A DNA stretch of 55,436 nucleotides from Sphaerotilus sp. Its GTDB lineage: Bacteria > Pseudomonadota > Gammaproteobacteria > Burkholderiales > Burkholderiaceae_C. Positions 39,054 through 54,439 of the stretch are shown here, piece after piece; positions within the stretch are counted from its first letter, which is position 1; each line of letters starts with the position of its first letter. The translations under genes and the position numbers were made by a program. Where the stretch lies: positions 1 to 55,436 of the forward strand of contig NZ_JAAFKF010000011.1 in NCBI RefSeq assembly GCF_013299175.1, written 5' to 3'. The notes below the pieces were generated by a model. That model worked only from the letters and a program-made list of their open reading frames with translations. It was not told the origin of the DNA and did not search any database.

Positions 39054-40499
39054 TCAATACCCCGCCGCCGACTTCACCAGGTTGAACACCCGCGTGTTGT
39101 CGATCGTGCCCTTGAAGGTCTTGGACGCCACGCCCGCACCGGTGGCGAACAGCATCACGTCGCCGCCACCGTGGGTTTCGGAACCAGCAGCACCGCGGCG
39201 GATCGCCACCTCCTGCAGGTAGTCCTTGCCCGCGACCACGGTCGCATCGAGGTTGCTGCGCACATCGGCCCGGTTGGAGCCGTTGCCGAACACCAGCGTC
39301 GTGTAGCTGACCCCGTTGGCATCGGTGCTGGGCAGGCCGGTGGCGTAGCTGATGTTCAGGCCGAGGATGTCGGTGCCGCGCTTGCCGTAGCCGTTGAAGG
39401 CCATCGTGTGGTCGTGGTCGGCGGTGACGACGATCAGCGTTTCCTTCAGCTCGGGATCAAAGGTTTTCACCTTGTCGATCGCGGCCTGGATCGCGTCGTC
39501 GAACGCCTTGGTGTCGGCCAGGGCGCGGGCGGCGTTGCTGCCGTGCAGGGCGTGGTCGATGCGACCGCCTTCGACCATCAGGAAGAAGCCCTTGCTGTTC
39601 TTCGAGAGGATGTCGAGCGCCTTGGTCGTCATCTGGGTCAGGCTCGGCTCCTTGGTGGCGTCGCGGTCGAGGTCGTAGGACATGTGGCCCTGCGACAGCG
39701 CCTGGTCGTACAGGCCGATGAGCTTGGTGCCGGCCACGACCGGCGCAGCGGTCAGGCTGGGCAGGTCGTTGACGAAGGTGTAGCCCTTGCCCTGCAGCTC
39801 CGCCACGAGGTCGCGTCCGTCCGGCCGGCCGCGCGGCGTCGTGGCGGCGTTGTACGGGCGCCAGTAGTAGCTGATGCCGCCCATGAGCACATCCACGCCG
39901 CCGCCGAGCGCACTGTTGAAGCCCGTGCCGCCGGGGACGGCCTGGCGGGCGATGTCGTACTCGGCGTCGCGGTGGCAGACGTGGGCGTAGGTCGCGGCCG
40001 GCGTGGCGTGCGTCAGGCGGGCGGTGGTCACGGTGCCGGTGGCCTTGCCCTGCTTGATCGCCAGTTCGAGCAGCGTGGTGGACGCCAGCCCGTTGCCGGT
40101 GGACGGGCAGTTGTTGACCGCGCTGGCCACCTTGGTGGTGGCGTCCGCGGTCGGCTTGTAGGCCAACGCCTGCGTCGCGCCATTCATCGAGATGACGTCG
40201 TTGCGCATCTTCACGCCGGTCATGTAGGCGGCCATCGACGGTGCGCTGTCGGTGGTCTGCGCGTCGAGCGAGTAGGTGCGGACGCGGGCGGTGTACGGCA
40301 GCTTGTCCATCGCGAGCGAGCCTTCTTCCTTGACGTACTTCAGGCGGGTGGCGGTCGTCGTGACCGGCCCCATGCCATCGCCCAGGAAGAAGATGACGTT
40401 CTTGGCCTCGCCAGCGGCGAAGGCCGCGGGCGTGAGGGCCACCGCGATGGCGGCGGCCAGGAGGCGGGGCGTGTGCTTGTGCATCAACGTGTGGATCAT
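39054..40499 (-). CDS. alkaline phosphatase, secreted
   Basis: A 481-residue phosphomonoesterase of the PhoA family (two zinc, one magnesium). The start at 40499 has a GGAG ribosome-binding site and gives a signal peptide ending AAFA|AGE. Present are the N-terminal metal site FFLGDGMG, the nucleophile motif TDSAPSMAAYMTG, VEGGRIDHALHG, VTADHDHT and THGGGDV. It is expected in the periplasm or outside the cell. The gene upstream encodes a close paralogue; the His-rich gene follows at once. Confidence 0.9.
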   Translation of the reverse strand: MIHTLMHKHTPRLLAAAIAVALTPAAFAAGEAKNVIFFLGDGMGPVTTTATRLKYVKEEGSLAMDKLPYTARVRTYSLDAQTTDSAPSMAAYMTGVKMRNDVISMNGATQALAYKPTADATTKVASAVNNCPSTGNGLASTTLLELAIKQGKATGTVTTARLTHATPAATYAHVCHRDAEYDIARQAVPGGTGFNSALGGGVDVLMGGISYYWRPYNAATTPRGRPDGRDLVAELQGKGYTFVNDLPSLTAAPVVAGTKLIGLYDQALSQGHMSYDLDRDATKEPSLTQMTTKALDILSKNSKGFFLMVEGGRIDHALHGSNAARALADTKAFDDAIQAAIDKVKTFDPELKETLIVVTADHDHTMAFNGYGKRGTDILGLNISYATGLPSTDANGVSYTTLVFGNGSNRADVRSNLDATVVAGKDYLQEVAIRRGAAGSETHGGGDVMLFATGAGVASKTFKGTIDNTRVFNLVKSAAGY

Positions 40500-40531
40500 G
40501 GTCGGAACTCCTGAACGGGCGTGGGCGTGGC

Positions 40532-42016
40532 TCACAGGCCGATGGCCTGGCGGATGAGCGTGAACACGGCGGTGTTGTCGATGACGCCGTGGAACAGGTC
40601 GGCCCCGAGTCCGGTGGCGCCCAGGAACACATCCCCGCCACCGTGGGTCTCGCCGCCGATGCCGGTCTGGACCACGGCTTCCTGGTGGTAGTTCTTCGCC
40701 GACACCACGTCGTCGGTCAACGCCGTCATCGCGCTGCGGTTGCCAGCGACACGGTTCTCGCCGTTGCCGAAGACCAGCGTGGTGAAGGGCTTGCCGTCGG
40801 CATCGAGTGCCGGAGTGGTCGGCGCCGCGTAATCGCGCATGAGGCCGAGGATGCCGGGGTTGGTCGGCGTCGTCTTGCCGGTGAGCGCCGCGTAGCCGTT
40901 CATGACCATCGTGTGGTCGTGGTCGGCGGTGACGACGATCAGGGTGTTCTTCAGCGTCGGGTCGGTCTTCTTCACCAGGTCGAGCGCCGCCTTGATCGCG
41001 TCGTCGAACGCCTTTGCCTCGGCCAGCGCACGCGCCGCGTTGGTGCTGTGCAGGGCGTGGTCGATGCGCCCGCCCTCGACCATCAGGAAGTAGCCCTTGC
41101 TGCTCTTGCTGCTGTTGGCCAGCAGGTCGATGGCCTTGGTCGTCATCTCGGCCAGGCTCGGCTCCTTGGTGGCGTCGCGGTCGAGTTCGTAGGACATGTG
41201 GCCTTCGCTCTGCGCCTGGTCGAACAGGGCGATCAGGCGGCTGCCGGCGGCGGTCGGCGCGGCGAGGAAGCCGGTGCGGTCGCTGGCGTAGGTGTAGCCC
41301 TTGGCCTGCAGTTCCGCCACCAGATCGCGGCCATCCGGGCGGCCGGCCTTGTTGGTCGTGGCGTTGAACGGGCGCCAGTACTGGCTCATCCCGCCCATCA
41401 GCACATCGACGCCGCTGCCCAGCGCGTTGTTGAAGCCGGCGCCGCCGGGCACCGCCTGGCGGGCAATCTCGTATTCGGTGTTGCGGTGGCAGACGTGGGC
41501 GTAAGTGGCGGCCGGCGTGGCGTGCGTCAGGCGGGCGGTCGAAACCACCCCGGTGCCCATGCCCTTGGCGATCGCCAGCTCCAGCAGGGTCGTGGACGCC
41601 TTGCCGTTGCCCGTGGCGGCGCAGTTGTTGACGGCGCTGCCCACCCCGGTGGTGGCGTCCTTGCCCGGCGCGACGGCCAGCGTGTCGCCGTCCATGCCCA
41701 GCACTTCGTTGCGCGTCTTCACCCCCGTCATGTAAGCGGCCATCGACGGCGCGCTGTCCGTGACCTGCGCGTCCAGCGAGTAGGTCTTGACGAAGGCGGT
41801 TTCGGGCAGCTTGTCGATCTCCAGCTCGCCGTCCTCGCCCGCGGCGTAGATGCGGGCAGCGGTCATCGGCACCATGCCGTAGCCGTCGCCGAGGAAGAAG
41901 ATGACGTTCTTGGGCGTCGCCACGGGGATGGGGTCCGTGACCAGCGCGCCATCCGATCCGCACCCGAGCAGGGTCAGTGAGGCGATCAGTGCGGTACCAA
42001 GGAATGACCGTTGCAT
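40532..42016 (-). CDS. alkaline phosphatase, lipoprotein form
   Basis: A 494-residue PhoA-family enzyme, a close tandem paralogue of the one downstream (long shared runs such as TDSAPSMAAYMTGVK). Unlike it, the N-terminus is a lipoprotein signal (SLTLLG-C near residue 19), so it is anchored in a membrane. The metal and nucleophile motifs are kept, with one added Tyr in the first site (GDGYGM). The ATG at 42016 has an AGGAG ribosome-binding site. It lies 32 bp before the second phosphatase, so both may be one transcript. Confidence 0.9.
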   Translation of the reverse strand: MQRSFLGTALIASLTLLGCGSDGALVTDPIPVATPKNVIFFLGDGYGMVPMTAARIYAAGEDGELEIDKLPETAFVKTYSLDAQVTDSAPSMAAYMTGVKTRNEVLGMDGDTLAVAPGKDATTGVGSAVNNCAATGNGKASTTLLELAIAKGMGTGVVSTARLTHATPAATYAHVCHRNTEYEIARQAVPGGAGFNNALGSGVDVLMGGMSQYWRPFNATTNKAGRPDGRDLVAELQAKGYTYASDRTGFLAAPTAAGSRLIALFDQAQSEGHMSYELDRDATKEPSLAEMTTKAIDLLANSSKSSKGYFLMVEGGRIDHALHSTNAARALAEAKAFDDAIKAALDLVKKTDPTLKNTLIVVTADHDHTMVMNGYAALTGKTTPTNPGILGLMRDYAAPTTPALDADGKPFTTLVFGNGENRVAGNRSAMTALTDDVVSAKNYHQEAVVQTGIGGETHGGGDVFLGATGLGADLFHGVIDNTAVFTLIRQAIGL

Positions 42017-42051
42017 TCGTTGCTCCTGTGTAAAGTGACAAATCGCACAGT

Positions 42052-42069
42052 AGCGACACCTTGTGACAG
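42052..42069 (-). promoter_or_regulatory. possible PhoB box ahead of the phosphatase genes
   Basis: On the minus strand CTGTCACAAGGTGTCGCT lies 35 bp before the first phosphatase gene. The first half is a near-perfect PhoB half-site; the second half (GTGTCGC) is weaker and one base out of the usual 11-bp spacing. Confidence 0.3.
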
Positions 42070-42174
42070 CCGTGTGGCACACCCCGCACGGCGCATCCCC
42101 TGCGCCGCGGTGCGGTTTCACGGCGAAACCAGGCAAGGCAGGCCCAATGTTGTGACGGAATTTGCACCTATAGA

Positions 42175-43638
42175 ATGCAAATCGCGATGCTGCCCCCCCA
42201 AACCGAGTCCCCGCCGCGCCCCGGCACCGATGCCACGACCACGGACCGCCTGCCCGCACTGACCCAACTGGTCGGCTGGCAGGCCGCACTGATGTCGCAG
42301 GACACCCTCGGCCCGGCAGGAATACAACTTGTTTCAGATCTGGCCGCCAGTCTGGGCTGCACCCAGGTCGCGCTGGGCTGGTGGCAGCGCCAGCACAGCC
42401 GCTTGCTGGCGGTGTCCGCTCCCACGGCGCTGGGCGACGAAGCCGGCGCGCTGCGCACCGCCCGCGCCTTCGAGGCGGCCATGGACGAGTGCCTGGACCA
42501 GGACGTGCTGGTGCGGTTTCCGGAGCCGGCCGACGCCCCGCCCCGCATCACGCTGGCCCACGCCGCGCTGGTGCAGCCACCGGGCGGGGATCCGGTGGCC
42601 GTGGCCAGCCTGCCGCTGCACGCCCATGGCCGCGCCGTGGGCGCGCTGACCTTGTGCTGGAGCAACCCGCAGGCGCTCGCCCGCTTCGACCCCGACACCC
42701 TGCGCCACCAGCTCGCCTTGATGGTGCCGTGGCTGGACCTGCTGCACCGCCACGAACAGCCGCTGTGGCAACGGGCCGCACAGGGCGGGCGGCGGCGCTG
42801 GCGGCGGTCGTCCTGGCTGCGCGGCGGCGGGGGTGCGGGGCTGGCGGTGCTGGTGGCCGGCTGGCTGCTGTGGCCGGTGGCGCACGAACTCGGCGGCCGG
42901 GCACGCCTCGACGGCCAGCAAGAGCGCAGCCTCACCGCGCCGACCGATGGTTTCCTGCAAGCCGTCCACGCCCGGCCAGGCGACCGCGTGCGCGCCGGCC
43001 AGCCGCTGCTGGAGCTGGCGCCGCAAGACCTGGAGGTCGATGTCCACCGCCTGGAAAGCGAGATCGCCCAGCACCAGAACGCCTACATGGCCGCGCTGGC
43101 CCGCTCGGACCGCGCCCAGATGGGGCTGCACCTCGCCCGCAGCGACGAGGTCGGCGCGCAACTGCAGCTCGTCCGGCGCGAACTCGGCCGCACGCGCATC
43201 GCCGCGCCGATGGACGCGCTGGTGCTGGACGGCGACCTGACGCGCTCGGTGGGGATGCCGGTGCGGCGCGGCGACACGCTGATGCGGCTGACGCCGGACC
43301 ACGCGCCGCGGGTGGTGGTCGAGATCGACGAGCGCGACATCGACGCCGTGCGGCCCGGACAGCCGGCGCGGCTGGCACTGTCGGCGCTGCCCTGGGACAC
43401 GCTGGACTTGCAGGTGGAGCGGGTGCAGCCGGTGGCGCATGCGGTCGAAGGCGCGAACGTGTTCGAGGTCGAGGCCCGCCTGCAGCCCGGTGACGCGGCG
43501 GCGGCGCAGGCGTCCAGCCTGCGGCCCGGTCTGACCGGCGTGGCGCGCATCGAGGTCGGCCGGCAAAGCCGGCTGGTGACGCTGGGCACGCGGGCGGCGG
43601 ACTGGCTGCGCCTGCAGTGGTGGCGCTGGAATGGCTGA
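42175..43638 (+). CDS. GAF-HlyD membrane adaptor protein, first gene of the LEPR export operon
   Basis: A 487-residue inner-membrane protein. Residues 30-195 look like a GAF domain, which usually senses a ligand or partner. An Arg-rich patch follows, then one membrane helix (about 219-236) and a periplasmic HlyD/MFP part with lipoyl-like halves (ERSLTAPTDGFLQAVHARPGD, TRIAAPMDALVLDG) and a beta-barrel domain. A GAF domain in the cytoplasm joined to a HlyD part is unusual. The first gene of the operon, it has no strong ribosome-binding site; 42187 is another possible start. The next gene starts 17 bp after its stop. Confidence 0.8.
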   Translation: MQIAMLPPQTESPPRPGTDATTTDRLPALTQLVGWQAALMSQDTLGPAGIQLVSDLAASLGCTQVALGWWQRQHSRLLAVSAPTALGDEAGALRTARAFEAAMDECLDQDVLVRFPEPADAPPRITLAHAALVQPPGGDPVAVASLPLHAHGRAVGALTLCWSNPQALARFDPDTLRHQLALMVPWLDLLHRHEQPLWQRAAQGGRRRWRRSSWLRGGGGAGLAVLVAGWLLWPVAHELGGRARLDGQQERSLTAPTDGFLQAVHARPGDRVRAGQPLLELAPQDLEVDVHRLESEIAQHQNAYMAALARSDRAQMGLHLARSDEVGAQLQLVRRELGRTRIAAPMDALVLDGDLTRSVGMPVRRGDTLMRLTPDHAPRVVVEIDERDIDAVRPGQPARLALSALPWDTLDLQVERVQPVAHAVEGANVFEVEARLQPGDAAAAQASSLRPGLTGVARIEVGRQSRLVTLGTRAADWLRLQWWRWNG

Positions 43639-43655
43639 GCGGAGGCGATGCTGCG

Positions 43656-45830
43656 ATGACGCTCCCCCCCTCCGACGCGCTGCTGCATCCGCACTGGTAC
43701 CGCGTCGCGCCGCTGAAACCCCGCCTGCGCGGCCACGTCCGCCTGCAGCGCCAGATCACCCGCGGCGAACGCTGGACGCTGCTCACCGACGGACCCACGC
43801 AGCGCACCCACCGGCTCGACGCTGCCGCCTGGGCGCTGATCGGCCGCTGCAACGGCGAGCGCACGGTGCAGCGGCTGTGGGAGACCTTGCTCGGTGAACA
43901 GGGCGATGACGCACCGACCCAGGGCGAGGTGATCGCGCTGCTGGCCCACCTGCAGCAGGCCGGGTTGCTGCAGGCGCCGATCGACACCGCGACCGGCGGC
44001 CCGTCCCACCCGGAACCCGGCTGGCAACCCTCTCGACCGCACCCGATGGTCAACGCCGCCAATCCGCTGTATTTCCAGGTGACGCTGGGCGATCCGTCCG
44101 CGCTGGTGCGGCGGCTGGAGCGGTGGCTGCATCCCGTGCTGCAGCCGGCCCTGCTGGTGCTCTGGGTGCTGGCGGTGGCCGCGGCCGGGCTGGCGGCGCT
44201 GGCCGACTGGCCGGCCCTGTCCGCCCATGCCAGCCACTGGCTGAGCAGCCCCCACCACCTCGGCCTGCTCTGGGCCGTCTACCCGGTGATGAAGCTGCTG
44301 CACGAGGCCGCCCACGCGCTGGCGCTCCACCGCTTCGGCGGCGAGGTGCGCGCCTTCGGGCTGACGCTGATGCTGTTCACGCCGGTGCCGCATGTGGACG
44401 CCCGCGCCGCCAGTGCCCTGGTCGGCCGGGGTCAGCGGCTGATCGTCAGCCTGGCGGGGATCATGGCCGAGCTGGCGATGGCCGCCGGCGCGCTCGTGGT
44501 CTGGCAACACACGCAGAACGGCCTGCTGCACGACCTCGCCTTCGTGGTGCTGTTCCTCGGCGCGGTGTCGAGCCTGCTGGTCAACGGCAACCCGCTGCTG
44601 CGCATGGACGGCTACCACGCGCTGTGCGACGCGCTGGACCTGCCGAATCTGGCGGCGCGCTCGCGGCGCTGGTGGCTGCGCGTGGGCAGCCGGGTGGTCA
44701 ACGGGCCGGGACATGCCGCGACCGCCCCCGCCTGTGCGCCGGGCGAGCGTGGCTGGCTCATCGCCTATGCACCGCTGTCGTGGGGCTACCGCGCCGCACT
44801 GAGTCTGGCGGTCGTGCGCTGGCTGGGCGGTGTCCACGCCGGGCTGGGGCTGGCGGCAGCGGCAGTGCTGGGCGGTCTGGTGCTGGGTTTGCCGCTGGTG
44901 GCGCTGTGGCAGCAATTGAATGCGCCCCTGCTGGCGGCGTCGGTGCGGCGGGTGGCACTGTGGCGGGTGGCGGGGATCGCGTCGGTGCTGCTGGGGCTGT
45001 TCTTTTTCTGCCCGCTGCCGCACGCGACCACCGTGCAAGGCGTGGTCTGGCTGCCCGAGACCGCCTGGATCCGGCCGCAGACCGACGGCTTCGTCACCAC
45101 CGCGCCCGAGCCGGCGCCGCGTCGCGTGGCAGCAGGCGACGTGGTGCTCCCCCTCGGCAACGACCGCCTCACCACCCGCCGCGCCGCGCTGGACGAGCAG
45201 CTCGCCGGGCTGGACGCCCGCCGCTTCGAAGCCATGGCCCGCGATCCAGGTCAGGCCGCCGCGCTGCAGCAGCAAGCCACCGCCCTGCGCGCCCAGCGCC
45301 AGCAGCTCGACGCGGAGATCACCGGACTCACCGTGCGCGCCCCGCTGGCCGGCACGCTGGTGCTCGACGACGCCACCCGGCTCGGCGGGCGCTGGCTGCA
45401 CCGTGGCGACACGCTCGGCCACGTCCGCCCGGACGACAACCGCACGGTGCAGGTGGTCCTGCCGCACGGGGACGCGCTGCTGGTGCAAGACGCCCTGCAA
45501 GGCATCACCCTGCGCCGCAGCGACCGCCCCGCCGAGGCCCTCGCCGCCCGACTGCGCACCAGCACCCTGCCCTCGGCCACCCGGCACCTGCCCGCGCGCA
45601 GCCTGGGCGACACCGGCGGCGGCACCGTCGTCACCGACCCGGCCGATCCGCAAGGACTGACGAGCCGCGACCCGGTCTCGGTGCTCGAACTCGCCAGTGC
45701 GCAGCCGCTGGGCGAGCGGGTCGGCAGCCGCGTGTGGGTGCGCTTCGCGTTCGCGCCGCAGCCGGCGGCGTGGCAGGTGGGGCGCTGGCTGCGGCAGACC
45801 TTCCTCGGCCAGTTCGAGGCGCGCAACTGA
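43656..45830 (+). CDS. PqqD-like / M50 metalloprotease / HlyD fusion membrane protein
   Basis: A 724-residue membrane protein with three parts. Residues 20-107 resemble PqqD, a small peptide-binding chaperone domain. The middle is a multi-helix site-2-type M50 peptidase with the zinc motif HEAAH (216-220) and the second site NPLLRMDGY (312-320). The last third is a HlyD-like adaptor (LTVRAPLAGTLVLDDATRLGGR). Proteins of this shape go with peptide or protein export loci. The start at 43656 has a GGAGG ribosome-binding site; an in-frame GTG at 43617 is less likely. The stop overlaps the secA-like ATG (TGATG). Confidence 0.85.
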   Translation: MTLPPSDALLHPHWYRVAPLKPRLRGHVRLQRQITRGERWTLLTDGPTQRTHRLDAAAWALIGRCNGERTVQRLWETLLGEQGDDAPTQGEVIALLAHLQQAGLLQAPIDTATGGPSHPEPGWQPSRPHPMVNAANPLYFQVTLGDPSALVRRLERWLHPVLQPALLVLWVLAVAAAGLAALADWPALSAHASHWLSSPHHLGLLWAVYPVMKLLHEAAHALALHRFGGEVRAFGLTLMLFTPVPHVDARAASALVGRGQRLIVSLAGIMAELAMAAGALVVWQHTQNGLLHDLAFVVLFLGAVSSLLVNGNPLLRMDGYHALCDALDLPNLAARSRRWWLRVGSRVVNGPGHAATAPACAPGERGWLIAYAPLSWGYRAALSLAVVRWLGGVHAGLGLAAAAVLGGLVLGLPLVALWQQLNAPLLAASVRRVALWRVAGIASVLLGLFFFCPLPHATTVQGVVWLPETAWIRPQTDGFVTTAPEPAPRRVAAGDVVLPLGNDRLTTRRAALDEQLAGLDARRFEAMARDPGQAAALQQQATALRAQRQQLDAEITGLTVRAPLAGTLVLDDATRLGGRWLHRGDTLGHVRPDDNRTVQVVLPHGDALLVQDALQGITLRRSDRPAEALAARLRTSTLPSATRHLPARSLGDTGGGTVVTDPADPQGLTSRDPVSVLELASAQPLGERVGSRVWVRFAFAPQPAAWQVGRWLRQTFLGQFEARN

Positions 45831-47699
45831 TGGGCACGGGCACGGGCATGGGCACAGGCACCGACAGCCCCCCGCTGCAAGCGCGCCTGGACGCCACCTG
45901 CGGCGACACGCTCGGTCTGCGGCCACGCCCCAACCAGTGGCAGGCCGCGCAGGCCATGGTCGCCGGCCGCCTCGCCGAACTCGGGCACCGACAGCCCCCC
46001 GCTGCAAGCGCGCCTGGACGCCACCTGCGGCGACACGCTCGGTCTGCGGCCACGCCCCAACCAGTGGCAGGCCGCGCAGGCCATGGTCGCCGGCCGCCTC
46101 GCCGAACTCGCCACGGGCGAAGGCAAGACACTGGCCCTGGCGCTGGCCGCCGCGCTGCTGGCCCTGCGCGGGCGCACCGTCCACCTGCTCACCGCCAACG
46201 ACTACCTCGCCACGCGGGACGCCACCCACCTGCACGGCTGGTACGCCCGGCTCGGCCTGCGCGTGGCAGCCATCACCAGCGACCACAGCCCGGCCGAACG
46301 CGCCGCCGCCTACCGGGCCGACGTGGTGTACGTCAGTGCCCGCGAGCTGGTGTTCGACAGCCTGCGCGACCAGGTCGCCGGCCGCTCGGCGTGGTCGGCC
46401 TCGGCCCGCGACGCCGGCCTGAGCGAACACGCCCGCGCCCTGACCCAGACCCCGCCCGACGATGACCGCGCCACCGTGCCCGCCTTCGACGTGGCCCTGA
46501 TCGACGAGGCGGACAGCATCCTGCTCGACGAGGCGGTGATGCCGCTGGTGCTGGCCCGCCCCGGCGAAGCGGGCGAGCGGCTGTCGCAGCTCGGCACGGC
46601 ACTCGATCTGGCCGCGCAACTGCAGCCCGGCCGCGACTTCGAGCTGCAGCCCGTTGCCCGCGACGCCGCACTGACCTCCGCGGGCGCGCAGCGGCTGGAC
46701 GCGCTCTGCGCCGACCGGTCGCGGCTGTGGCGCCACCGGATGCACCGGGAAGAGCTGGTGCGGCTGGCGCTGGTGGCCGCGCACCTGCTGCTGCCGCAGC
46801 GCGACTACCTGGTGCGGCAATCCCAGGTGCGCCTGATCGATCCGGTGACGGGGCGCATCGCCGCCGGACGGATGTGGTCGAACGGGCTGCACGAGCTGGT
46901 CTGCCTGAAAGAAGGCTGCCCGCCGCCGCCGCCCACCGAAACCGCCGCCCGCACCACCTACAGCCACTTCCTCACCCGCTACCGCCTGATCGGCGGCACC
47001 AGCGCGACGCTGCACGACCAGCGCCACGAATTGCGCCGCCTCTACGGCCTGCAGATCAGCCGTGTCCATGCCCACACCCCGCCCCAGCGCACCCGCGGTC
47101 CGAACCGCTGGTTCGCCGACGACGCCGCACGCGACCGGGCGGTGGTCGAGCGGGCGCTTGCGCTGGCCGACGAGGGGCGCCCGGTGCTGATCGGCACGGA
47201 TGGGGTGCCGCAGTCGCTGCGGTTGATCGCGGCGTTCGAGGCCGCGTTTGCGGCGGGCGCGACCACGCGGTCGGTGCAATGCCTCGACGCCCGCCAGGAT
47301 GCCCGCGAAGCCGCGTGCATCGCCGCCGCCGGCCAGCCCGGCTGCCTCACCGTGGCCACCCGCATGGCCGGCCGCGGCGTGGACATCCGGCTGCATCCGC
47401 AGGCGGTGCAGGCTGGCGGCTTGCATGTGCTGAGCTGCCAGGACAACCCGGCGCGGCGCCTCGACGAACAGCTCTTCGGCCGCAGCGCCCGCCAGGGCGA
47501 TCCGGGCAGCGTCGAACACTGGCACGTCGGCCCCGCCCGCTCGCTCTACCGCATTCCTGCGCTCGGTGCCTGGCGCGATCTGGCGTGGCGGCTGCGCCAG
47601 CGCGCCCGCGAAGCGCAGGCCGCCGACGAACGCCGCCGGCTGCGCCTCGGCGACGCGCTGGTGCGCAACCGGCTGGACCCACTCGCGCCCGGTGGTTGA
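45830..47699 (+). CDS. SecA-like ATPase of the LEPR export operon, frame broken by a 127-bp duplication
   Basis: A short SecA relative, the motor that pushes proteins through a membrane channel. Motifs in order: LATGEGKTLA (Walker A), LTANDYLATRDA, YVSARELVFDSLRD, IDEADSILLDEA (Walker B), YRLIGGTSAT, VATRMAGRGVDIRL and RRLDEQLFGRSARQGDPGS. It lacks the long C-terminal part of housekeeping SecA, including the zinc tail. An exact 127-bp duplication (45857-45983 and 45984-46110) shifts the frame near Walker A. Removing one copy gives 580 residues with a normal Walker A region. As given, the only long frame starts at 46083. Confidence 0.85.
45857..46110. repeat. exact 127-bp tandem duplication inside the secA-like gene
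   Basis: Bases 45857-45983 are repeated without change at 45984-46110; flanking bases differ. The unit is the same length as the one in the integrase 25.5 kb away. A GGGCAC-type hexanucleotide run (45831-45860) precedes it. Confidence 0.97.
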
Positions 47700-47721
47700 G
47701 CACCGGACACTTTCCACGCCC

Positions 47722-48573
47722 ATGACACGCTGCCCCATGCAACGACTCCGACCTTTCTACCGACGCCAGCGGCTGTGGCTGTGGCTGGCCGTGGCGCTGG
47801 CGCCGGTGCTGCCCGCGCCGGCCGCGGCCCTCACGCTGGGCTGCCTCCTCACGCCCGCCCGCACCGCCGACATCGGCACGCCCCAGGCCGGCGTGGTCGA
47901 GCGGATGCTGGTGGACCGCGGCGACACGGTGCGCCAGGGACAGCCGCTGGCGCTGCTGCAGGCCACGGGCGAACGCGCCTCGGTGCGCACCGCCGAAGCC
48001 CGCGCCAAGGCGCAAGCCGCCGTCAGCGCCGCACAGGCCACGCTGGCGCTGGCGCGGCAGAAAACCGAGCGCGCCGAGTCGCTGCACACGGAGCAGTTCA
48101 TCTCCGACATCGCCCTCAACCAGGCGCGCACCGAGCGGAGCGTGGCCGCGCAGGCGCTGCAGCAGGCCGAGGACCAGCGCGCCGTCTACCAGGCCGAATC
48201 CGCGCAGGCGCTGGCGCAGTTGCACCAGCGTGCGCTGCGCAGCCCCTTCGATGGCGTGGTGATCGACCGCATGGCGCAGCCGGGCGAGCGGGTCGAGCTG
48301 CAACCGCTGCTGCGCCTGGCCGACGTGGGACGGCTGCGGGTGGAGGTGGTGGTGCCGGCCAGCCAGTTCGGACAGGTCCGCAGTGGCGCACGCCACCTGG
48401 TGAAGGCCGAAGTGCCCGGCGTCCCCGCCCGCGAGGCCACCGTCACGCAGGTGGACCAGGTCATCGACGCCGCCAGCAACACCTTCCGCGTGCGGCTGGC
48501 ACTGGACAACGCCGACCGGGCGGTGCCGGCTGGCGCGCGCTGCCAGATCGATCTGGGGCTGAAGACGCCATGA
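47722..48573 (+). CDS. HlyD-type periplasmic adaptor protein
   Basis: A 283-residue membrane-fusion protein. It has an N-terminal signal or membrane segment (about residues 17-38), two lipoyl halves (IGTPQAGVVERMLVDRGDTV; LRSPFDGVVIDRMAQPGERV) around an alpha-helical hairpin rich in Ala, Gln and Glu, then a beta-barrel domain. It would bridge the inner-membrane proteins to the outer membrane. The second ATG at 47737 is also possible. Its stop overlaps the start of the LEPR protein gene (ATGA). Confidence 0.85.
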   Translation: MTRCPMQRLRPFYRRQRLWLWLAVALAPVLPAPAAALTLGCLLTPARTADIGTPQAGVVERMLVDRGDTVRQGQPLALLQATGERASVRTAEARAKAQAAVSAAQATLALARQKTERAESLHTEQFISDIALNQARTERSVAAQALQQAEDQRAVYQAESAQALAQLHQRALRSPFDGVVIDRMAQPGERVELQPLLRLADVGRLRVEVVVPASQFGQVRSGARHLVKAEVPGVPAREATVTQVDQVIDAASNTFRVRLALDNADRAVPAGARCQIDLGLKTP

Positions 48574-51473
48574 CCCGTCCGCCCCGCCGCCGCTGGCAGT
48601 GCGAAGAGCTGGAGCCGCGCATCCTCTACGCCGCCGACACGGCCGCCCTCACCGGCCTGGCCAACCTCGGCGACATCGGCACCACCTTCCTCGTCAGCAC
48701 CACCGCCGACAGCGGCGCCGGCTCGCTGCGCGACGCCATCACGCAGGCCAACCTGCACCCCGGCGCCGACACGATCCGCTTCGACATCCGCGAGCCACTG
48801 GTCAACGGCGCGCACACCATCACCCCACGCTCGGCCCTGCCCGTCATCACCGACACCGTCTGGCTCGATGCCAGCCGCGAGCCGGACGCGCTGGCACTCG
48901 GCCATCCGGTGGTGGAGCTGGTCGGCACCGACGCGGGGGGCAGCACCGCGGCGCTGGTGCTGGCCGATGGCGCGGACGGGAGCCTGGTGCGTGGGCTGGT
49001 GATCCACGAATTCGGTGGTGCCGGCATCCAGGTGCGCGCGGGCGCGGACGGCGTGGTGCTGGCCGGTCTGCGGATCGGCACCGACGTCACCGGTCTGCGC
49101 GCACCGGGCAACGGCGGCAACGCCATCGAGACCAGCGCCGCGCAGACCCTGATCGGCGGCGCGAACCCGGCCGACCGCAACCTGCTGTCCGGCAACAACG
49201 CCGGGGTCCAGGCGACGGGCGCAGCGGCCACGGGCACGCGCATCGAGGGCAACTTCATCGGCACCGATGCCCGCGGCGAGTCCGCGCTGGGCAACCGCAC
49301 GGTGGGGGTCTACCTGGATGCGCCGGACGCCACCGTCGTCGGCAACCTCGTCAGCGGAAACGGCTTCGAGGGCGTCTACCTGCTGGCTGGTGCCGGTGGC
49401 AGCACCGTGCAGGGCAACCTGATCGGCACCGACCTGAGCGGCACCCGCGCCGTGGGCAATGGCAGCTTCGGCGTGTACGTGGAGAACACCCGCGACGTGC
49501 TGATCGGCGGTACCGCGCCCGGCGCCGGCAACCTGATCGCGTGGCAGAAATCCGGCGCGGGCATCTCCATCGTGGGCGTGGCGGGCGGCGTGTCGGTGCT
49601 CGGCAACGCCATCCACGACAACGCCGGGCTGGGCATCGACCTCGGCGCCGAGGGCGTCAACGGCAACCGCGAGGCCGACACCGATGGCGGCCCCAACAAC
49701 CTGCTGAACTACCCCGTGCTGGACAGCGCCACGGTCCAGGCCGGCGCGACCCGCCTCCTCGGCACCGTGACCATGGCCGCCGGCACCACGCTGCGCATCG
49801 AGTTCTTCGTCAGCCCGCAGGCCGACCCGCTGGGCTTCGGTGAAGGCCGGACCTTCCTGGGCAGCGCGCGCGTGACCGCCGATGCGAGCGGCCTGGCGCG
49901 CATCGACACGGTGCTGGCGGGCGTACTGCTGCAGGCCGGGCAGGTGGTGTCGGCAACCGCCACCGTGCAGCTCGCCGGGGCCGCCGCGTCGCCGAAACCC
50001 TGGGGCGACAGCTCCGAGTTCGGCAACGCGGTGGTGGTGCAGGTCGTGCCGAGCGCGCCCGTGGTCGAGCCAGCACAAATCCTGCACATCGCCGAGAACA
50101 GCCCCGCCGACACCGTGGTCGGCACCCTGCGCGCCAGCGACGCCGACCCCGGCAGTGTCCTGTCCGGCTGGACGATCACCGGCAGCAGCGCGCTCGCCAT
50201 CGACGCCGCCACCGGCACGGTCCGCGTGGTCGATCCCGCCACGCTCGACCACGAGCGGTCGCTGTCCATCACCCTCACCGCCACGGTCAGCGACGGCGTC
50301 GGCGGCAGCGGCCTGACCAGCGCACCGCAGACCCTCACCGTCTTCATCGACGATGTCAACGAGCCGCCGGTGCTGACGCTGGCGCCGTGGAAGATCCAGA
50401 CCGGCGCGCCGCTGACGCTCGATCCCGCGGTGCTCGGTGCGCAAGACCCGGAGGGCAACACGGCGGCGCTGCTGGTCGAGGTTGGCGCCACCACGGGCGG
50501 GCGCTTCGAGGCGGTGGGCGCGCCCGGCGTGGCCCTCGACCGCTTCAGCGTGGCCGCACTCCAGTCGGGCCAAATCCGCTTTGTCGCCACCGCGCTGAGC
50601 CAGGCGCCCACCGTCAGCCTGCGCGTGAGCGACGGCAGCACCACCAGCGCCTGGACCACCGTCGGCGTGGACTGGACCCCTGCGCCACCCGCGCCCGCGC
50701 CCGCGCCAGCCCCTGCGCCGCTGGACCCCACGCCGGTCCTCACCATCAGCGACCCGGTGTCCAGAGACAGCACCACCACCGCGCCGCCCACGCTCGACGT
50801 GCCCGCGCTGTCCGGCGACCGGGGGCCGCTGTCGCGCGAGGTGCGCGCCGTGGCGGCGGAGCAGTGGCTGGCGCAGGTGCAGGCCACCAGTTCGGCCGAG
50901 ATCGCCGCGCTGAACGCGCACATACGCTCCGACAGCGCCCGGCCCCCCGGCACGCCGCACACCAGCGACGCCGCCCCTGCCCCCGATCTGCTGGCCCTGG
51001 TGATGCCCGACACGGCGCTGGCCACGCTGCAGGCCGGCTATGACCTGCCCGCCACCGTGGCGCGGGGTGGCGAGCTGTCCGCGCTGGCCGATGACGGGCT
51101 GGGCCTGCTGCGCACCGATCTGGCCGACGAGGCGGGCCGGCTGCAATCGGCGATCGACCCGATCGAGGCGTCGGGACTGGCGCTGACGGTGGGGCTGGTG
51201 TGGTGGACGGTGCGGCTGGGCGGGGTGGCGGGTTCGCTGCTGGTGTCGGTGCCGACGTGGCAGTTCTTCGATCCGCTGCCGGTGCTGACCCGACCGCCAC
51301 GGCCCTTGCCGTCCCCCCAGCGGCGCAGTGATCCCGCCGGGCCGGACCTGCACAACGAGGAAGCCTCGGCCGCCGAGGTGCTCGGCCGGGACGCCAGCGC
51401 CGCCGTGCGCGAAGCCCCCGAGGCCGATGACAGCGTCGATGCCCCCGCCGCCGGCAAGGGAGCACGCCGGTGA
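48570..51473 (+). CDS. LEPR-motif surface protein with beta-helix and cadherin-like domains
   Basis: A 967-residue protein, the likely cargo of the operon. The N-terminus is basic, then carries the motif LEPRILY (residues 14-20), the signature of LEPR-XLL proteins, and no ordinary hydrophobic signal. Next: a CSLREA-like TTADSGAGSLRDAI segment, a right-handed beta-helix with repeated GNxIGTD turns, a cadherin-like domain (DVNEPPVLTL join), a CSPG-like domain (about 600-690), a Pro/Ala linker and a coiled part. A Trp-rich hydrophobic segment (about 872-893, GLVWWTVRLGG) comes before the acidic tail and may be a membrane stop. The stop overlaps the cyclase gene (GTGA). Confidence 0.85.
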   Translation: MTRPPRRRWQCEELEPRILYAADTAALTGLANLGDIGTTFLVSTTADSGAGSLRDAITQANLHPGADTIRFDIREPLVNGAHTITPRSALPVITDTVWLDASREPDALALGHPVVELVGTDAGGSTAALVLADGADGSLVRGLVIHEFGGAGIQVRAGADGVVLAGLRIGTDVTGLRAPGNGGNAIETSAAQTLIGGANPADRNLLSGNNAGVQATGAAATGTRIEGNFIGTDARGESALGNRTVGVYLDAPDATVVGNLVSGNGFEGVYLLAGAGGSTVQGNLIGTDLSGTRAVGNGSFGVYVENTRDVLIGGTAPGAGNLIAWQKSGAGISIVGVAGGVSVLGNAIHDNAGLGIDLGAEGVNGNREADTDGGPNNLLNYPVLDSATVQAGATRLLGTVTMAAGTTLRIEFFVSPQADPLGFGEGRTFLGSARVTADASGLARIDTVLAGVLLQAGQVVSATATVQLAGAAASPKPWGDSSEFGNAVVVQVVPSAPVVEPAQILHIAENSPADTVVGTLRASDADPGSVLSGWTITGSSALAIDAATGTVRVVDPATLDHERSLSITLTATVSDGVGGSGLTSAPQTLTVFIDDVNEPPVLTLAPWKIQTGAPLTLDPAVLGAQDPEGNTAALLVEVGATTGGRFEAVGAPGVALDRFSVAALQSGQIRFVATALSQAPTVSLRVSDGSTTSAWTTVGVDWTPAPPAPAPAPAPAPLDPTPVLTISDPVSRDSTTTAPPTLDVPALSGDRGPLSREVRAVAAEQWLAQVQATSSAEIAALNAHIRSDSARPPGTPHTSDAAPAPDLLALVMPDTALATLQAGYDLPATVARGGELSALADDGLGLLRTDLADEAGRLQSAIDPIEASGLALTVGLVWWTVRLGGVAGSLLVSVPTWQFFDPLPVLTRPPRPLPSPQRRSDPAGPDLHNEEASAAEVLGRDASAAVREAPEADDSVDAPAAGKGARR

Positions 51474-53056
51474 GCCGCCCGGTCCTGCCCGTCTGGTGGC
51501 CGCGCCTGGGCGTCGAAGCCCGCCTTGCGCTGGGGCTGGTGGCGATCTTCCTGGCGGTCATCTTCCTGCTCGACGTGCTGTTCGGACTTGTCCCCGACCG
51601 CGCCCGCACCGAGCTGACCGTGCGCCAGACCACGGCCACGGCGCTGGCCCTGCTGGTCACGCAGGGCATCGAGCAAGGCGGGCGCCCGCCACACGCCGCG
51701 ATCCAGCAATGGGTGGCGCAGGACCGCGAGGTGCTGTCGGTGGCGCTGCAACAGCAGGGCCGTGCCCGCACGCCGCTCCTCGGCGACCACAGCGCCCACT
51801 GGCACCTGCCACCGGGCGAAGGCTCGACGCTGACACAGGTGCGCGTGGCCATCCACGACGCGCAGCAGCAGCCCTGGGGCACGCTCGAAATCGCCTTCCG
51901 GCCGATCTACCCGACGACGCTGGCGGGCGTGCTCGCCACCCCGTCGGTGCGGGCGCTGCTGGCGATCGCGGTGCTGGGCGGGCTGGCGATCTGGCTCTAT
52001 CTGCGGCGGGTGCTGCAGCACCTGGACCCTGGGCAGGTGGTGCCGGAGCGGGTGCGCGATGCCTTCGACGTGCTCGACGAAGGCATCGTCATCCTGGATC
52101 CGCAGGCCCGCGTGATGATGGCCAACGAGGCGTTCCGCCGGCTGGCGCCGCTGCGGCCGGCGCGGCGTGCGGTGGACATTGGCCAGCCCATCACGCAGCT
52201 CGACTGGCTGTGCAGCGCCCTCACCGCCGACGGCGCAGAAGCCCCATGGACCACGGCCACCCGCACCGCCGCCCCCTCCGACGAACGCGAGGCCCGCATC
52301 GCGCAGGCGCCCGCACCCGCTCCGCTGCGCGAGGTGCTGGTGAAATGTTCGCCCGTGCTGGACCCGGACGGCCAGGTGCGCGGCAGCATGTTGCGGCTGC
52401 GCGACGTGAGCGCCTTGCACCAGCTCAACCGGGCGCTGCAAGCCTCGCAGCAAGCCCTGCGCGAACGCAACGAGGAACTCAGCCGTCTGGCCACCCGCGA
52501 CCCGATGACCGGCTGCCTGAACCGGCGCGCCTTCTTCGAGCAGGCGACGCGGCTGTTCGAGCTGGCCGACCAGCGCGGCGAGGGACTCGTCTGCGTGATG
52601 GCCGACATCGACCACTTCAAGCAGTTCAACGACCGCCACGGCCACGCCACCGGCGATCAGGTCATCAAGGCGGTGGCGGCCATTCTCTCGGGCGGCGTGC
52701 GGAGCACGGATCTGGTCTGCCGCTACGGCGGGGAGGAGTTCTGCCTGCTGCTGCCACAGCGCGAGGCGGCCGACGTGCAGTCGCTGGCGGAGCGGCTGCG
52801 GCGCGAGATCGCGGACACCGCGGGCGCCCAGGTCGAGTCGGTCGCGGGCCTGCGGGTCACGTCGAGCTTCGGCATGGCGCTGTTCGAACCCGGACTGGCG
52901 GGACTGGCCACGCTGGTGGACCGGGCCGACCAGGCGCTCTACGACGCCAAGCGCACCGGGCGCAACCGGGTCAGCCGCTGGCCCGTGTCCGGCATGGGTT
53001 CTGAGGCTCCTGCTGCCTCAGCCGAATCAGCCGCTTCAGAAGCGAAACCGGCCTGA
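51470..53056 (+). CDS. membrane PAS-GGDEF diguanylate cyclase, last gene of the LEPR operon
   Basis: A 528-residue membrane enzyme making c-di-GMP. Two membrane helices (about 16-42 and 160-180) enclose a periplasmic sensor domain. A PAS domain (about 195-320), a short coiled coil and a GGDEF domain follow, with GGEEF at about 420-424 and an RSTD I-site. It should be active and feedback-inhibited. The GTG start overlaps the LEPR gene stop, so cyclase and cargo are translated together. The end overlaps the convergent DUF4124 gene by about 20 bp. Confidence 0.88.
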   Translation: MSRPVLPVWWPRLGVEARLALGLVAIFLAVIFLLDVLFGLVPDRARTELTVRQTTATALALLVTQGIEQGGRPPHAAIQQWVAQDREVLSVALQQQGRARTPLLGDHSAHWHLPPGEGSTLTQVRVAIHDAQQQPWGTLEIAFRPIYPTTLAGVLATPSVRALLAIAVLGGLAIWLYLRRVLQHLDPGQVVPERVRDAFDVLDEGIVILDPQARVMMANEAFRRLAPLRPARRAVDIGQPITQLDWLCSALTADGAEAPWTTATRTAAPSDEREARIAQAPAPAPLREVLVKCSPVLDPDGQVRGSMLRLRDVSALHQLNRALQASQQALRERNEELSRLATRDPMTGCLNRRAFFEQATRLFELADQRGEGLVCVMADIDHFKQFNDRHGHATGDQVIKAVAAILSGGVRSTDLVCRYGGEEFCLLLPQREAADVQSLAERLRREIADTAGAQVESVAGLRVTSSFGMALFEPGLAGLATLVDRADQALYDAKRTGRNRVSRWPVSGMGSEAPAASAESAASEAKPA

Positions 53057-53662
53057 CGCGCCAGGCAGCACCGGTGCAGGCACGGGCGCCGCTGGACGTA
53101 CCGGACTTGCGTCGGCCTGGGGACTGGTGTCGGGTGGCGCCAACGGCTGTGCGGGGGCGGCGCGCCAGTGTGGCGGCAGTTGCGAGGTGCGCGGATAGCC
53201 GGCGGCGTCGAGGGTGGCCTGCCAGTCGCCGGGTTCGAAGCCCTGCAACCGCTGGGCGCCCAGGCGCAGCAGGGGCAGCGTGACCAGGCCCTCGCGGCGC
53301 TGCAGTTCCGCCACGTCCTCGGCGCGGTCGAGGGTGCGTTCGCGCACGGGCACACCGCGTTGCTGCAACAAGGCGCGGGCGCTGTCGCAGGGGCCGCAGT
53401 GCTGTGTGGTGTAGAGCGTGGCGGGATACCGCGCCACCACCTGCCGCAGGACGTAGGGCAACTCGACTTCGGACGTGGACGGGTCCGTGCTGCCCAGCGG
53501 GCGGGCAGCGGCGGTGGTGCCAGCGCCAGCGGCCGGGCGGTCGGTGTAGGTGACGCGGCCATCGGGGCCAACCACCTTGTACTGTGCCGCCGCGCCACCC
53601 GCCAGCACCAGCAGCAGCAACGCGCCGGCCAGACTGCTGCACCTCGTCGCCTGGGATGTCAT
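53036..53662 (-). CDS. DUF4124 / glutaredoxin fusion protein
   Basis: A 208-residue exported protein with a signal peptide (about residues 1-26), a short DUF4124 domain (YKVVGPDGRVTYTDRP) and a glutaredoxin fold (LYTTQHCGPCDSARALLQQRG) with the active CGPC at residues 89-92. A Pro/Ala-rich tail follows. It is probably a periplasmic thiol-disulfide protein. Its end overlaps the convergent cyclase gene. Confidence 0.8.
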   Translation of the reverse strand: MTSQATRCSSLAGALLLLVLAGGAAAQYKVVGPDGRVTYTDRPAAGAGTTAAARPLGSTDPSTSEVELPYVLRQVVARYPATLYTTQHCGPCDSARALLQQRGVPVRERTLDRAEDVAELQRREGLVTLPLLRLGAQRLQGFEPGDWQATLDAAGYPRTSQLPPHWRAAPAQPLAPPDTSPQADASPVRPAAPVPAPVLPGASGRFRF

Positions 53663-53728: not shown

Positions 53729-54439
53729 TCACGGGACCGGCAACGACACCAGCGACAGCCGGCCCTGCTCCCACTGCAGGCGAAAGCCTTGCAAGAAGCT
53801 GTTGCCGTAGAGCACGAAGGGCATGTCGCTGTCGATGACCACCGCCTCGACATCGCGCGCCTGCAGCGGCCCGAGGCTGACCTGTGCCAGCCGCACGCGC
53901 CGCCCGGCGCTGCGCCCGGAGGCGGTCTGTACCTGCACCTGCGCCGACGCCCCGGACGGCCCCTCCACCCCGAGCCGGCGCGCCGCCTGCGTGGACAGCA
54001 CCACCACCGACGCCCCGGTGTCCACCACGCCCTGCACGGCCTGCCCGTTGATCTCGCCGCCGGCGTGGAAGAGCTGGTCGCTGCCGGCCTGCAGCACCAG
54101 CTTGCGCCCACCGCCGCCACCACCGCCGCCACTGCCGGACCCTGCCGACACCCCGACCGTCACCGGCGCGGCCCCGACCACCAGCTCCTGCCGCACCCCG
54201 CCCGTGTCGATCACCACGGACTGCGCCGCCCCGCCCCGCTGCACGCGCAGACCGTCCACCGTCTCGCCCACCGTCATCACGCGGGTACGGCCATCGATCA
54301 CCAGCACCACCTTGTCGCCCATGGTCCCGGCCAGCGCCACGCTGGGTGCGCCATGCGCCCGCGCCAGACCGGACAGCGCCGCCAGGGCGAACACCACCCC
54401 GGTCAGCACCCCAGTACCCATTGGCTTCACTGCCCACAT
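53729..54439 (-). CDS. retropepsin-like aspartic protease (TIGR02281-type)
   Basis: A 236-residue exported protein. The signal is at about residues 8-30. A Gly-rich stretch (98-111) leads into a clan AA protease domain with the active motif VDTGAS (139-144), followed by QAARRLGVEG and NSFLQGFRLQWEQGRL. One Asp-Thr-Gly per chain means it works as a dimer, as in other bacterial retropepsin-like proteins. The ATG at 54439 has a CGGAG ribosome-binding site. The substrate is not known. Confidence 0.82.
   Translation of the reverse strand: MWAVKPMGTGVLTGVVFALAALSGLARAHGAPSVALAGTMGDKVVLVIDGRTRVMTVGETVDGLRVQRGGAAQSVVIDTGGVRQELVVGAAPVTVGVSAGSGSGGGGGGGGRKLVLQAGSDQLFHAGGEINGQAVQGVVDTGASVVVLSTQAARRLGVEGPSGASAQVQVQTASGRSAGRRVRLAQVSLGPLQARDVEAVVIDSDMPFVLYGNSFLQGFRLQWEQGRLSLVSLPVP

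Follow-up and report, generated by a model that had tools for sequence, protein, structure and literature searches.

The window, that is, the whole 55,436-nucleotide stretch of DNA that was analysed, carries six genes whose families, features and positions are collected in Table 1; all six were present and placed as the initial annotation had described them. Most of the genes had also been said to overlap, which held only narrowly: with the preferred starts, three of the five junctions overlap (M50/SecA-like by 1 base, HlyD2/LEPR and LEPR/GGDEF by 4 bases each), while the other two leave 17 and 22 bases between the genes. For the M50 gene, ATG 43656 was preferred to GTG 43617 as the start, and the SecA-like gene begins at ATG 45830, sharing TGATG with the M50 stop. 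The GAF match of HlyD1 lies under the Pfam cut-off in the window and over it in the relative L053. No ABC transporter was found among the six genes, and no TolC-type outer-membrane protein in the operon.

Table 1. Genes and sequence features of the cluster in the window.
Feature	Position	Strand	Supporting matches
HlyD1, membrane-fusion protein with N-terminal GAF-like part	42175-43638	+	HlyD_3 E 4e-18; HlyD_D23 E 8e-15; weak GAF_2 E 0.005
M50 intramembrane metalloprotease with PqqD-like N-terminal part and HlyD-like tail	43656-45830	+	PqqD E 9e-5, just under its cut-off; daptide_HExxH E 4e-38, below cut-off; weak HlyD_3 tail E 0.001
SecA-like motor gene, frameshifted as assembled	45830-47699; main frame 46083-47699	+	SecA_DEAD E 2e-54; P-loop_SecA E 7e-28; SecA_PP_bind E 9e-17
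Exact 127-bp tandem duplication within the SecA-like gene, probably an assembly join	45857-46110		
HlyD2, second periplasmic adaptor	47722-48573	+	RND_mfp E 1e-35, over cut-off; start 47722 or 47737
LEPR-tagged cargo, 967 aa, beta-helix and cadherin-like	48570-51473	+	Beta_helix E 2e-7; Cadherin_3 E 8e-7; NF012209 over cut-off
LEPR tag (EELEPRILYAAD)	48603-48653	+	NF012209, N-terminal match of 18.6 bits against a cut-off of 17
PAS-GGDEF diguanylate cyclase, occasional neighbour, non-core	51470-53056	+	GGDEF E 5e-43

An exact 127-bp tandem duplication lies between the start of the SecA-like gene and its main frame; since 127 is not a multiple of three, the gene is frameshifted as assembled, a point absent from the initial annotation. 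A second exact 127-bp duplication was observed at 20347-20600, where it shifts a frame too, and a search of the window for periods of 40-400 bases turned up no further exact duplication. That both are perfect and equally long suggests that they are joins of a k=127 assembly; in relatives the SecA-like gene is uninterrupted.

To place the cluster in a wider context, its gene order was compared across loci. Of 47 loci from the window's order, 41 have the M50 gene immediately upstream of the SecA-like gene, as do 73 of the 78 testable named loci; HlyD1 in turn immediately precedes M50 in 73 of the 74 named loci that could be tested for it. These two sets of loci are not independent because they overlap: they have some contigs in common, L094/L050, L137/L048, L156/L059 and L136/L073 lie on contigs of equal length, and L091 has tag places identical to those of G016. 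Isolates with the module include Roseateles cellulosilyticus P8 (L129) and Ramlibacter monticola (L119). Many named loci come from metagenome bins, L055 and L056 are close kin, and the subset studied further consisted of 40 of 80, mostly outside Burkholderiales, with 39 taken in. M50 and SecA-like distances were correlated over 52 loci (r 0.90, with none of 2000 shuffles as high), which common descent alone could yield. The expectation that all six families would keep together in order was not borne out, as 10 of the 47 loci have a labelled GGDEF gene, which directly follows the cargo on its strand in only two (L041, L050); one conserved six-gene operon is thereby ruled out, the cyclase being non-core. 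L141 comes from G602, a genome titled Omnitrophota; within that phylum the M50 gene was present in this genome only, one of 14, so its occurrence there is either sporadic or a binning error.

The link with LEPR-tagged proteins was then followed at the level of genomes. Among the matches listed for 300 genomes of the order, a SecA-like gene was present in 27/27 genomes with a strong LEPR tag (E<=1e-4), whereas a strong tag was present in 0/268 genomes without a SecA-like gene; the 32 SecA-like genomes had been picked by eye (about 225 bits or more, or the degenerate copy of G153, with G065 omitted), and at most four SecA-like and three M50 candidates were scored per genome. An M50 gene was found in 48 of 50 LEPR-tag genomes of a phylum-wide sample and in 12 of 13 LEPR genomes of a second order, that of G616, where no more than 12 kb separates it from 13 of the 16 LEPR genes, with gaps mostly under 5 kb. 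In the window's order, a listed M50 gene is on the same contig as only 22 of the 66 strong LEPR genes, and within 12 kb of 15; these distances used 47 of 79 M50 rows, the other 32 belonging to genomes or contigs without a strong tag match. Conserved co-occurrence, whose absence had been named in advance as the refutation, was thus present, and the Fisher tests applied to it are uncorrected for shared ancestry. Gene order and the genome-level counts together rule out a chance association. The two parts are also found apart in the window's order: a LEPR match at E<=0.05 was absent from 14 of 54 M50 genomes, and M50 was missing from 11 of 51 LEPR genomes, the matches there being weak except in G094 (E 2e-4, in a 23-codon frame). 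Among the matches listed, 22 of the 51 LEPR genomes at E<=0.05 had no SecA-like gene, and 11 of these had M50 and 11 did not; a frame-length cut was noticed post hoc, not as a test, to separate the two halves. At a loose threshold (E<=1) the tag model gave chance matches in 7 of 14 control genomes. The genome from which the window comes has three tag matches over the cut-off, and these fall exactly at its three SecA-like loci; with the co-occurrence this comparison supports the dedicated route for LEPR proteins that had been proposed, whereas the surface display, trimming and release put forward with it are putative.

The tag on the window cargo is that of LEPR-8K (NF012209), but this model spans only 24 cargo positions, and the family output names no partner machinery. 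The typical tag differs between two classes of M50, LEPRxLxSAD against LEPRxMFDGA, the latter with the second class, which is free of SecA-like genes. All 34 class A loci carried an LEPRxLxSA-like tag, and all 11 class B pieces an LEPRx[MVL][FLM]D[GA] tag. Nine of these 11 pieces hold the M50 gene; it is not inside L180 and L185. In L080, M50 is truncated by the end of the contig. Seven matches that could be assigned to neither type appear to be chance hits in other frames, the tag of the window itself was omitted as lying too deep in its open frame, and L082, with a different SecA-like frame, was excluded from both the tag and the ABC counts.

The SecA-like protein is a true SecA homologue along its whole length. 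As in SecA1 and SecA2, NBD1, the cross-linking domain and NBD2 are present with the motor motifs (Walker A, DEAD and arginine finger), and the profile alignment spans residues 15-612 of B. subtilis SecA. However, the protein has about 620-670 aa against about 900 for SecA, its alignment to the genome's own 918-residue SecA ends at position 679, and it falls under every NCBIfam SecA/SecA2 cut-off; for SecA2 (accessory Sec) the best scores were 325 against 725 bits (window frame) and 501 against 1085 (intact relative L129). As the alignment stops at residue 612, the parts that follow NBD2, which we take to be the helical wing, two-helix finger and zinc tail, are missing. In a phylogeny, 38 SecA-like and 10 housekeeping SecA proteins separated with a support of 0.746 on the SecA-like side, to which little weight was given.

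The initial annotation had regarded this protein as the energy source, which does not hold in general. At least one strict motor pattern was missed in 27 of 75 SecA-like rows; L113, L122 and L149 have full-length SecA-like proteins without any of the four motor motifs, and the copy in L081 is degenerate. No SecA-like gene stands beside M50 in 5 of the 78 testable named loci, nor in L187. Of the 13 complete class B M50 genes, 12 showed no SecA-like neighbour, and the thirteenth piece (L184) gave no more than a 22-bit match, which lies in a distant frame of the opposite strand. An essential role of SecA-like in the module is therefore ruled out, and it looks like an added motor. Because some M50 loci have no live SecA-like gene, and because class B has none and carries a different tag, M50 and the HlyD proteins look like the core of the module.

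The reading of M50 as a protease fits the residues HExxH and NxxPxxxxD, which are invariant in 35/35 M50 sequences and in 22/22 of a set spanning both classes. Pfam Peptidase_M50 gave no match for the window protein and 24.8 bits against a cut-off of 27.2 for L065. Like Daptide_HExxH (NF041824) and YydH/LiaK (NF058609), M50 has a PqqD-like part followed by an HExxH membrane protease, but it scores under both cut-offs (131.5 of 300 bits, with 144.9 and 165.9 in relatives, and 27 of 225), has an extra HlyD tail and stands with giant protein cargos. Its predicted model (pLDDT 87.7) matched membrane-fusion proteins only, and no protease, among the 50 matches listed. The PqqD matches in the window and in further searches are consistent with a leader-binding part.

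In many bacteria, then, genes for giant LEPR proteins adjoin the same set, in which a membrane protease and bridge proteins are often joined by a cut-down SecA motor. Judging from the compared sequences, we consider the module to be probably a machine devoted to the export of LEPR-tagged extracellular proteins, which are often giant. The comparison shows the conserved module and its order, its link to LEPR genes within and across genomes, the invariant protease residues, a tag type that goes with the M50 class, and a SecA-like motor core lacking the C-terminal parts; leader binding, cleavage, ATP-driven pushing, the duct and the final location we infer as follows. The cargo N-terminus, a basic stretch followed by LExLEPRxLxSAD, would serve as a leader; in most cases it lacks the hydrophobic core that marks a Sec signal. 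The PqqD-like part of M50, akin to the leader-binding domains of peptide-processing systems, would hold it at the inner membrane, and the M50 site would cut the leader or open for it. The SecA-like ATPase, where present, may push the chain, and HlyD1, HlyD2 and the HlyD-like tail of M50 would form the bridge to a TolC-type outer-membrane duct. We propose more tentatively, as possible rather than probable, that this is a new kind of pathway, in which the inner-membrane gate would be neither an ABC transporter nor SecYEG but an M50 protein whose PqqD-like part reads the leader. Through this gate giant LEPR proteins would be driven into an HlyD-TolC duct by a cut-down SecA, and a SecA-free sister class would read a different tag.

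The ordinary SecYEG could instead carry the cargo across the inner membrane, with the SecA-like protein as a SecA2-type helper and with M50 and the HlyD proteins only maturing, holding or releasing the cargo afterwards. The whole-length homology to SecA agrees with this, and the predicted SecA-like model came closest to SecY-bound, substrate-engaged SecA (TM 0.81, 5eul and 6itc). We nevertheless regard it as unlikely: the protein stops ahead of the SecY-touching parts (in SecA, the two-helix finger touches SecY), class B has no SecA-like protein at all, and 31 of 34 cargo N-termini had no hydrophobic core. The signal-peptide argument is a partial one, as a hydrophobic stretch, present in 3/34 cargos, was also missing in 14 of 37 controls. 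Regulated proteolysis or peptide modification, in which M50 would cut the LEPR leader for release or signalling and export would use other, unlinked machinery, seems doubtful still more. It draws on the kinship of M50 to daptide and epipeptide proteases, the GAF part on HlyD1 and the cyclase in the window operon, but it can hardly explain two HlyD proteins, an HlyD-like tail, some TolC-family neighbours and a translocation motor without transport.

The type 1 secretion system (HlyB/HlyD/TolC) resembles the module in its HlyD-type adaptors, to which both HlyD1 and HlyD2 belong, and in very large, partly RTX-like proteins. A TolC-family gene, which would be a further likeness, lies close to few loci (7 of the 80 named ones, with the OEP domain confirmed in two relatives). 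A fused ABC exporter was detected in only 2 of 138 loci by a regular-expression scan, which rules it out as a module part, and M50, with or without SecA-like, stands in its place. Type 1 signals are C-terminal, but the LEPR tag is N-terminal, and a type 1 system with its ABC transporter encoded elsewhere in the genome is thus very improbable. The giant, partly RTX-like cargos resemble in this the Vibrio protein described in PMC10868602. That the link merely reflects ancestry, large genomes or linkage is hardly credible: each part occurs sporadically and the counts are uncorrected for vertical descent, but the order is fixed in records assigned to several phyla, the link was replicated in the second order at gaps mostly under 5 kb, and tag type pairs with M50 class.

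In the open-licence literature searched, no paper describing the module and no exporter for LEPR-tagged proteins was found, and the module is so far without a name. LEPR-tagged proteins are among the largest in bacteria, the largest LEPR open frame seen here having 19,427 codons, and with a dedicated exporter they would gain a candidate export machine. SecA would then have a use in a form other than the usual one, stripped of the parts that cooperate with SecY, and the exit route would be directly testable, the two M50 classes and two tag types forming a built-in specificity test. One M50 set may serve many cargos, as suggested by G254, in which 11 LEPR matches accompany two M50 genes.

The six genes of the initial annotation were confirmed by family matches in the window, and three of their five junctions were overlaps of 1-4 bases, the other two being gaps of 17 and 22 bases. 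As assembled, the SecA-like gene has its reading frame broken at 45857-46110, where 127 bp are exactly duplicated in tandem. A second exact 127-bp tandem duplication, also shifting a frame, was found at 20347-20600, and a scan of the window for exact duplications with a period of 40-400 bases revealed none beyond these two. Both are likely to stem from joins made in a k=127 assembly, the one at 20347-20600 probably reflecting the same fault as the one in the operon. By eye, the frame shifted at 20347-20600 resembles a phage-type integrase.

Genes of the LEPR operon in the window
Gene	Position
HlyD1	42175-43638
M50	43656-45830
SecA-like	45830-47699
HlyD2	47722-48573
LEPR protein	48570-51473
PAS-GGDEF	51470-53056

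To our reading of the sequences, the module is best explained as a dedicated exporter of LEPR proteins, in which M50 and HlyD would form the core and a cut-down SecA would be an added motor. In 300 genomes of the window's order, the SecA-like matches formed a group separate from housekeeping SecA, and 47 SecA-like neighbourhoods were retrieved. M50 was immediately upstream of the SecA-like gene in 41 of them; in five (L051, L068, L070, L078, L080) the contig ends upstream of this gene, and L082 is a different kind of locus. HlyD1 preceded M50 in 39 of the 41, the exceptions being L076, where it lies downstream, and L081, which is cut. A profile search with the M50 alignment in a named genome collection confirmed at least 548 stretches, from which 80 loci were kept; many of these records are metagenome bins, and some contigs are common to both sets. 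Among the matches listed, the titles covered Beta-, Gamma-, Alpha- and Deltaproteobacteria, Desulfobulbaceae, Nitrospiraceae, Omnitrophota and Rokubacteria, and the SecA-like gene followed M50 in 73/78 loci with room, partial and degenerate copies included (absent in L091, L114, L115, L125 and L141). HlyD1 was upstream of M50 in 73/74 testable loci, and HlyD2, DUF3467, SapC and a TolC-family gene occurred in 64, 24, 9 and 7 of the 80, respectively.

The LEPR tag at the cargo N-terminus was scored with the NCBIfam model NF012209 ('LEPR-8K'), which exceeded its cut-off at three places in the window's genome, coinciding with the three SecA-like genes there. Among 14 control genomes, matches were obtained in seven at E<=1, in one at E<=0.05 and in none at E<=0.01; in the window's order, 51/300 genomes carried the tag at E<=0.05. 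Co-occurrence, uncorrected for ancestry and on partly overlapping genome sets, was counted as genomes with both, LEPR only, partner only and neither: in the 300 genomes, 29/22/3/246 (E<=0.05), 28/4/4/264 (1e-3) and 27/0/5/268 (1e-4; Fisher 1e-33) for SecA-like, and 40/11/14/235 (0.05), 36/3/18/243 (0.01) and 27/0/27/246 (1e-4) for M50 of either class; with thresholds of E<=1e-60 for M50 and E<=0.01 for the tag, 48/2/36/213 in a phylum set of 299 genomes (Fisher 6e-30) and 12/1/9/174 in the order of Thetidibacter halocola (G616, source of L166; 196 genomes, Fisher 8e-13). Of 66 tag matches at E<=1e-4 in the window's order, in genomes mostly split into many contigs, 22 were on the same contig as a listed M50 gene and 15 within 12 kb; in the order of G616, 14/16 tag genes were on an M50 contig and 13/16 within 12 kb of M50. 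The tag was also present in 33/39 searched genomes behind the named loci.

Following up the genomes that carry a tag but no SecA-like gene revealed a second M50 class (B), with 18-22% identity to the window's M50 (class A). Among 20 pieces retrieved, 13 held a complete class B M50 and three a cut one, L180 and L185 were without M50, and L186 and L187 carried class A. The order HlyD2-HlyD1-M50 was found in nine (L168, L169, L170, L172-L176, L179), an M50-scoring frame stood where HlyD1 would be in L171 and L177, L184 had HlyD1-M50 and L178 M50 alone; no SecA-like gene was seen in 12 of the 13 pieces with a complete class B M50. HExxH and NxxPxxxxD were invariant across both classes (22/22). Tags were of the LEPRxLxSA type in 34/34 class A loci and of the LEPRx[MVL][FLM]D[GA] type in 11/11 class B pieces (nine with M50 in the piece), and this pairing is the strongest pointer that M50 may read the tag. 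A more divergent third group of M50 genes (190-290 bits; G725, G709, G726, G767, order of G616) also lies 2-4 kb from tag genes. In the window's genome, a further M50 gene of the wider family (G000:C113:30133-32268, part of L199) lies ~5 kb from a sub-cut-off tag match (15.5 bits); the minus strand of that piece yielded no plain LEPR string.

The M50 model (pLDDT 87.7) comprised a small mixed N-terminal part, a metal-motif helical region and a beta-rich tail, and all 50 structure matches listed were membrane-fusion or related efflux proteins, with no protease among them. Since its sequence matches PqqD (3g2b, E 2e-4; Pfam, E 9e-5) and also daptide protease, leader-peptide biology seems to be indicated. 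The SecA-like family profile covers residues 15-612 of B. subtilis SecA, and the window frame stops at residue 679/918 of the genome's own SecA; by the domain borders of SecA, it thus presumably has no helical wing, no two-helix finger and no zinc tail. Motor motifs were retained in most members, at least one strict pattern being missing in 27/75 frames of the named loci and all four in the full-length L113, L122 and L149. Motif-less copies still follow M50 (L113:12348-13883, L122:12596-14773, L149:12173-14098, L081:1232-3160), as if a structural role had been kept. The model of an intact relative (L129; pLDDT 88.9) gave TM 0.81 to substrate-engaged SecA-SecY versus ~0.67 to free SecA, a preference that may reflect training-data bias.

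The tag lies 11-60 residues from the chosen starts, usually preceded by basic residues. The main rival explanation is that the cargo leaves through SecYEG and is processed afterwards. Stretches as hydrophobic as a signal peptide were found in 3/34 cargos versus 23/37 TolC and HlyD2 controls, and the difference is therefore real but partial. In the proposed exporter, the leader would be recognized and cleaved, and the cargo pushed and given a duct. Multiple tags per M50 gene were common (11 tags and two M50 genes in G254), as expected if the tag were a sorting signal. G254, G029 and G100 have seven to eleven LEPR genes each and few M50 genes, which suggests many cargos per putative machine. The window cargo is small (967 aa), with open frames elsewhere reaching 19,427 codons. 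No description of the module was found in the literature searched, and our claim of novelty is limited to this and to NCBIfam, where the M50 and SecA-like proteins fell under every matched cut-off.

The cyclase is probably a neighbour with a regulatory role. On the minus strand, two adjoining genes at 39054-42289 appear by eye alkaline phosphatase-like, one with a lipoprotein-like start, and just past the operon, in opposite orientation, lie a DUF4124-glutaredoxin protein (53036-53662) and a TIGR02281-type aspartic protease (53729-54439).
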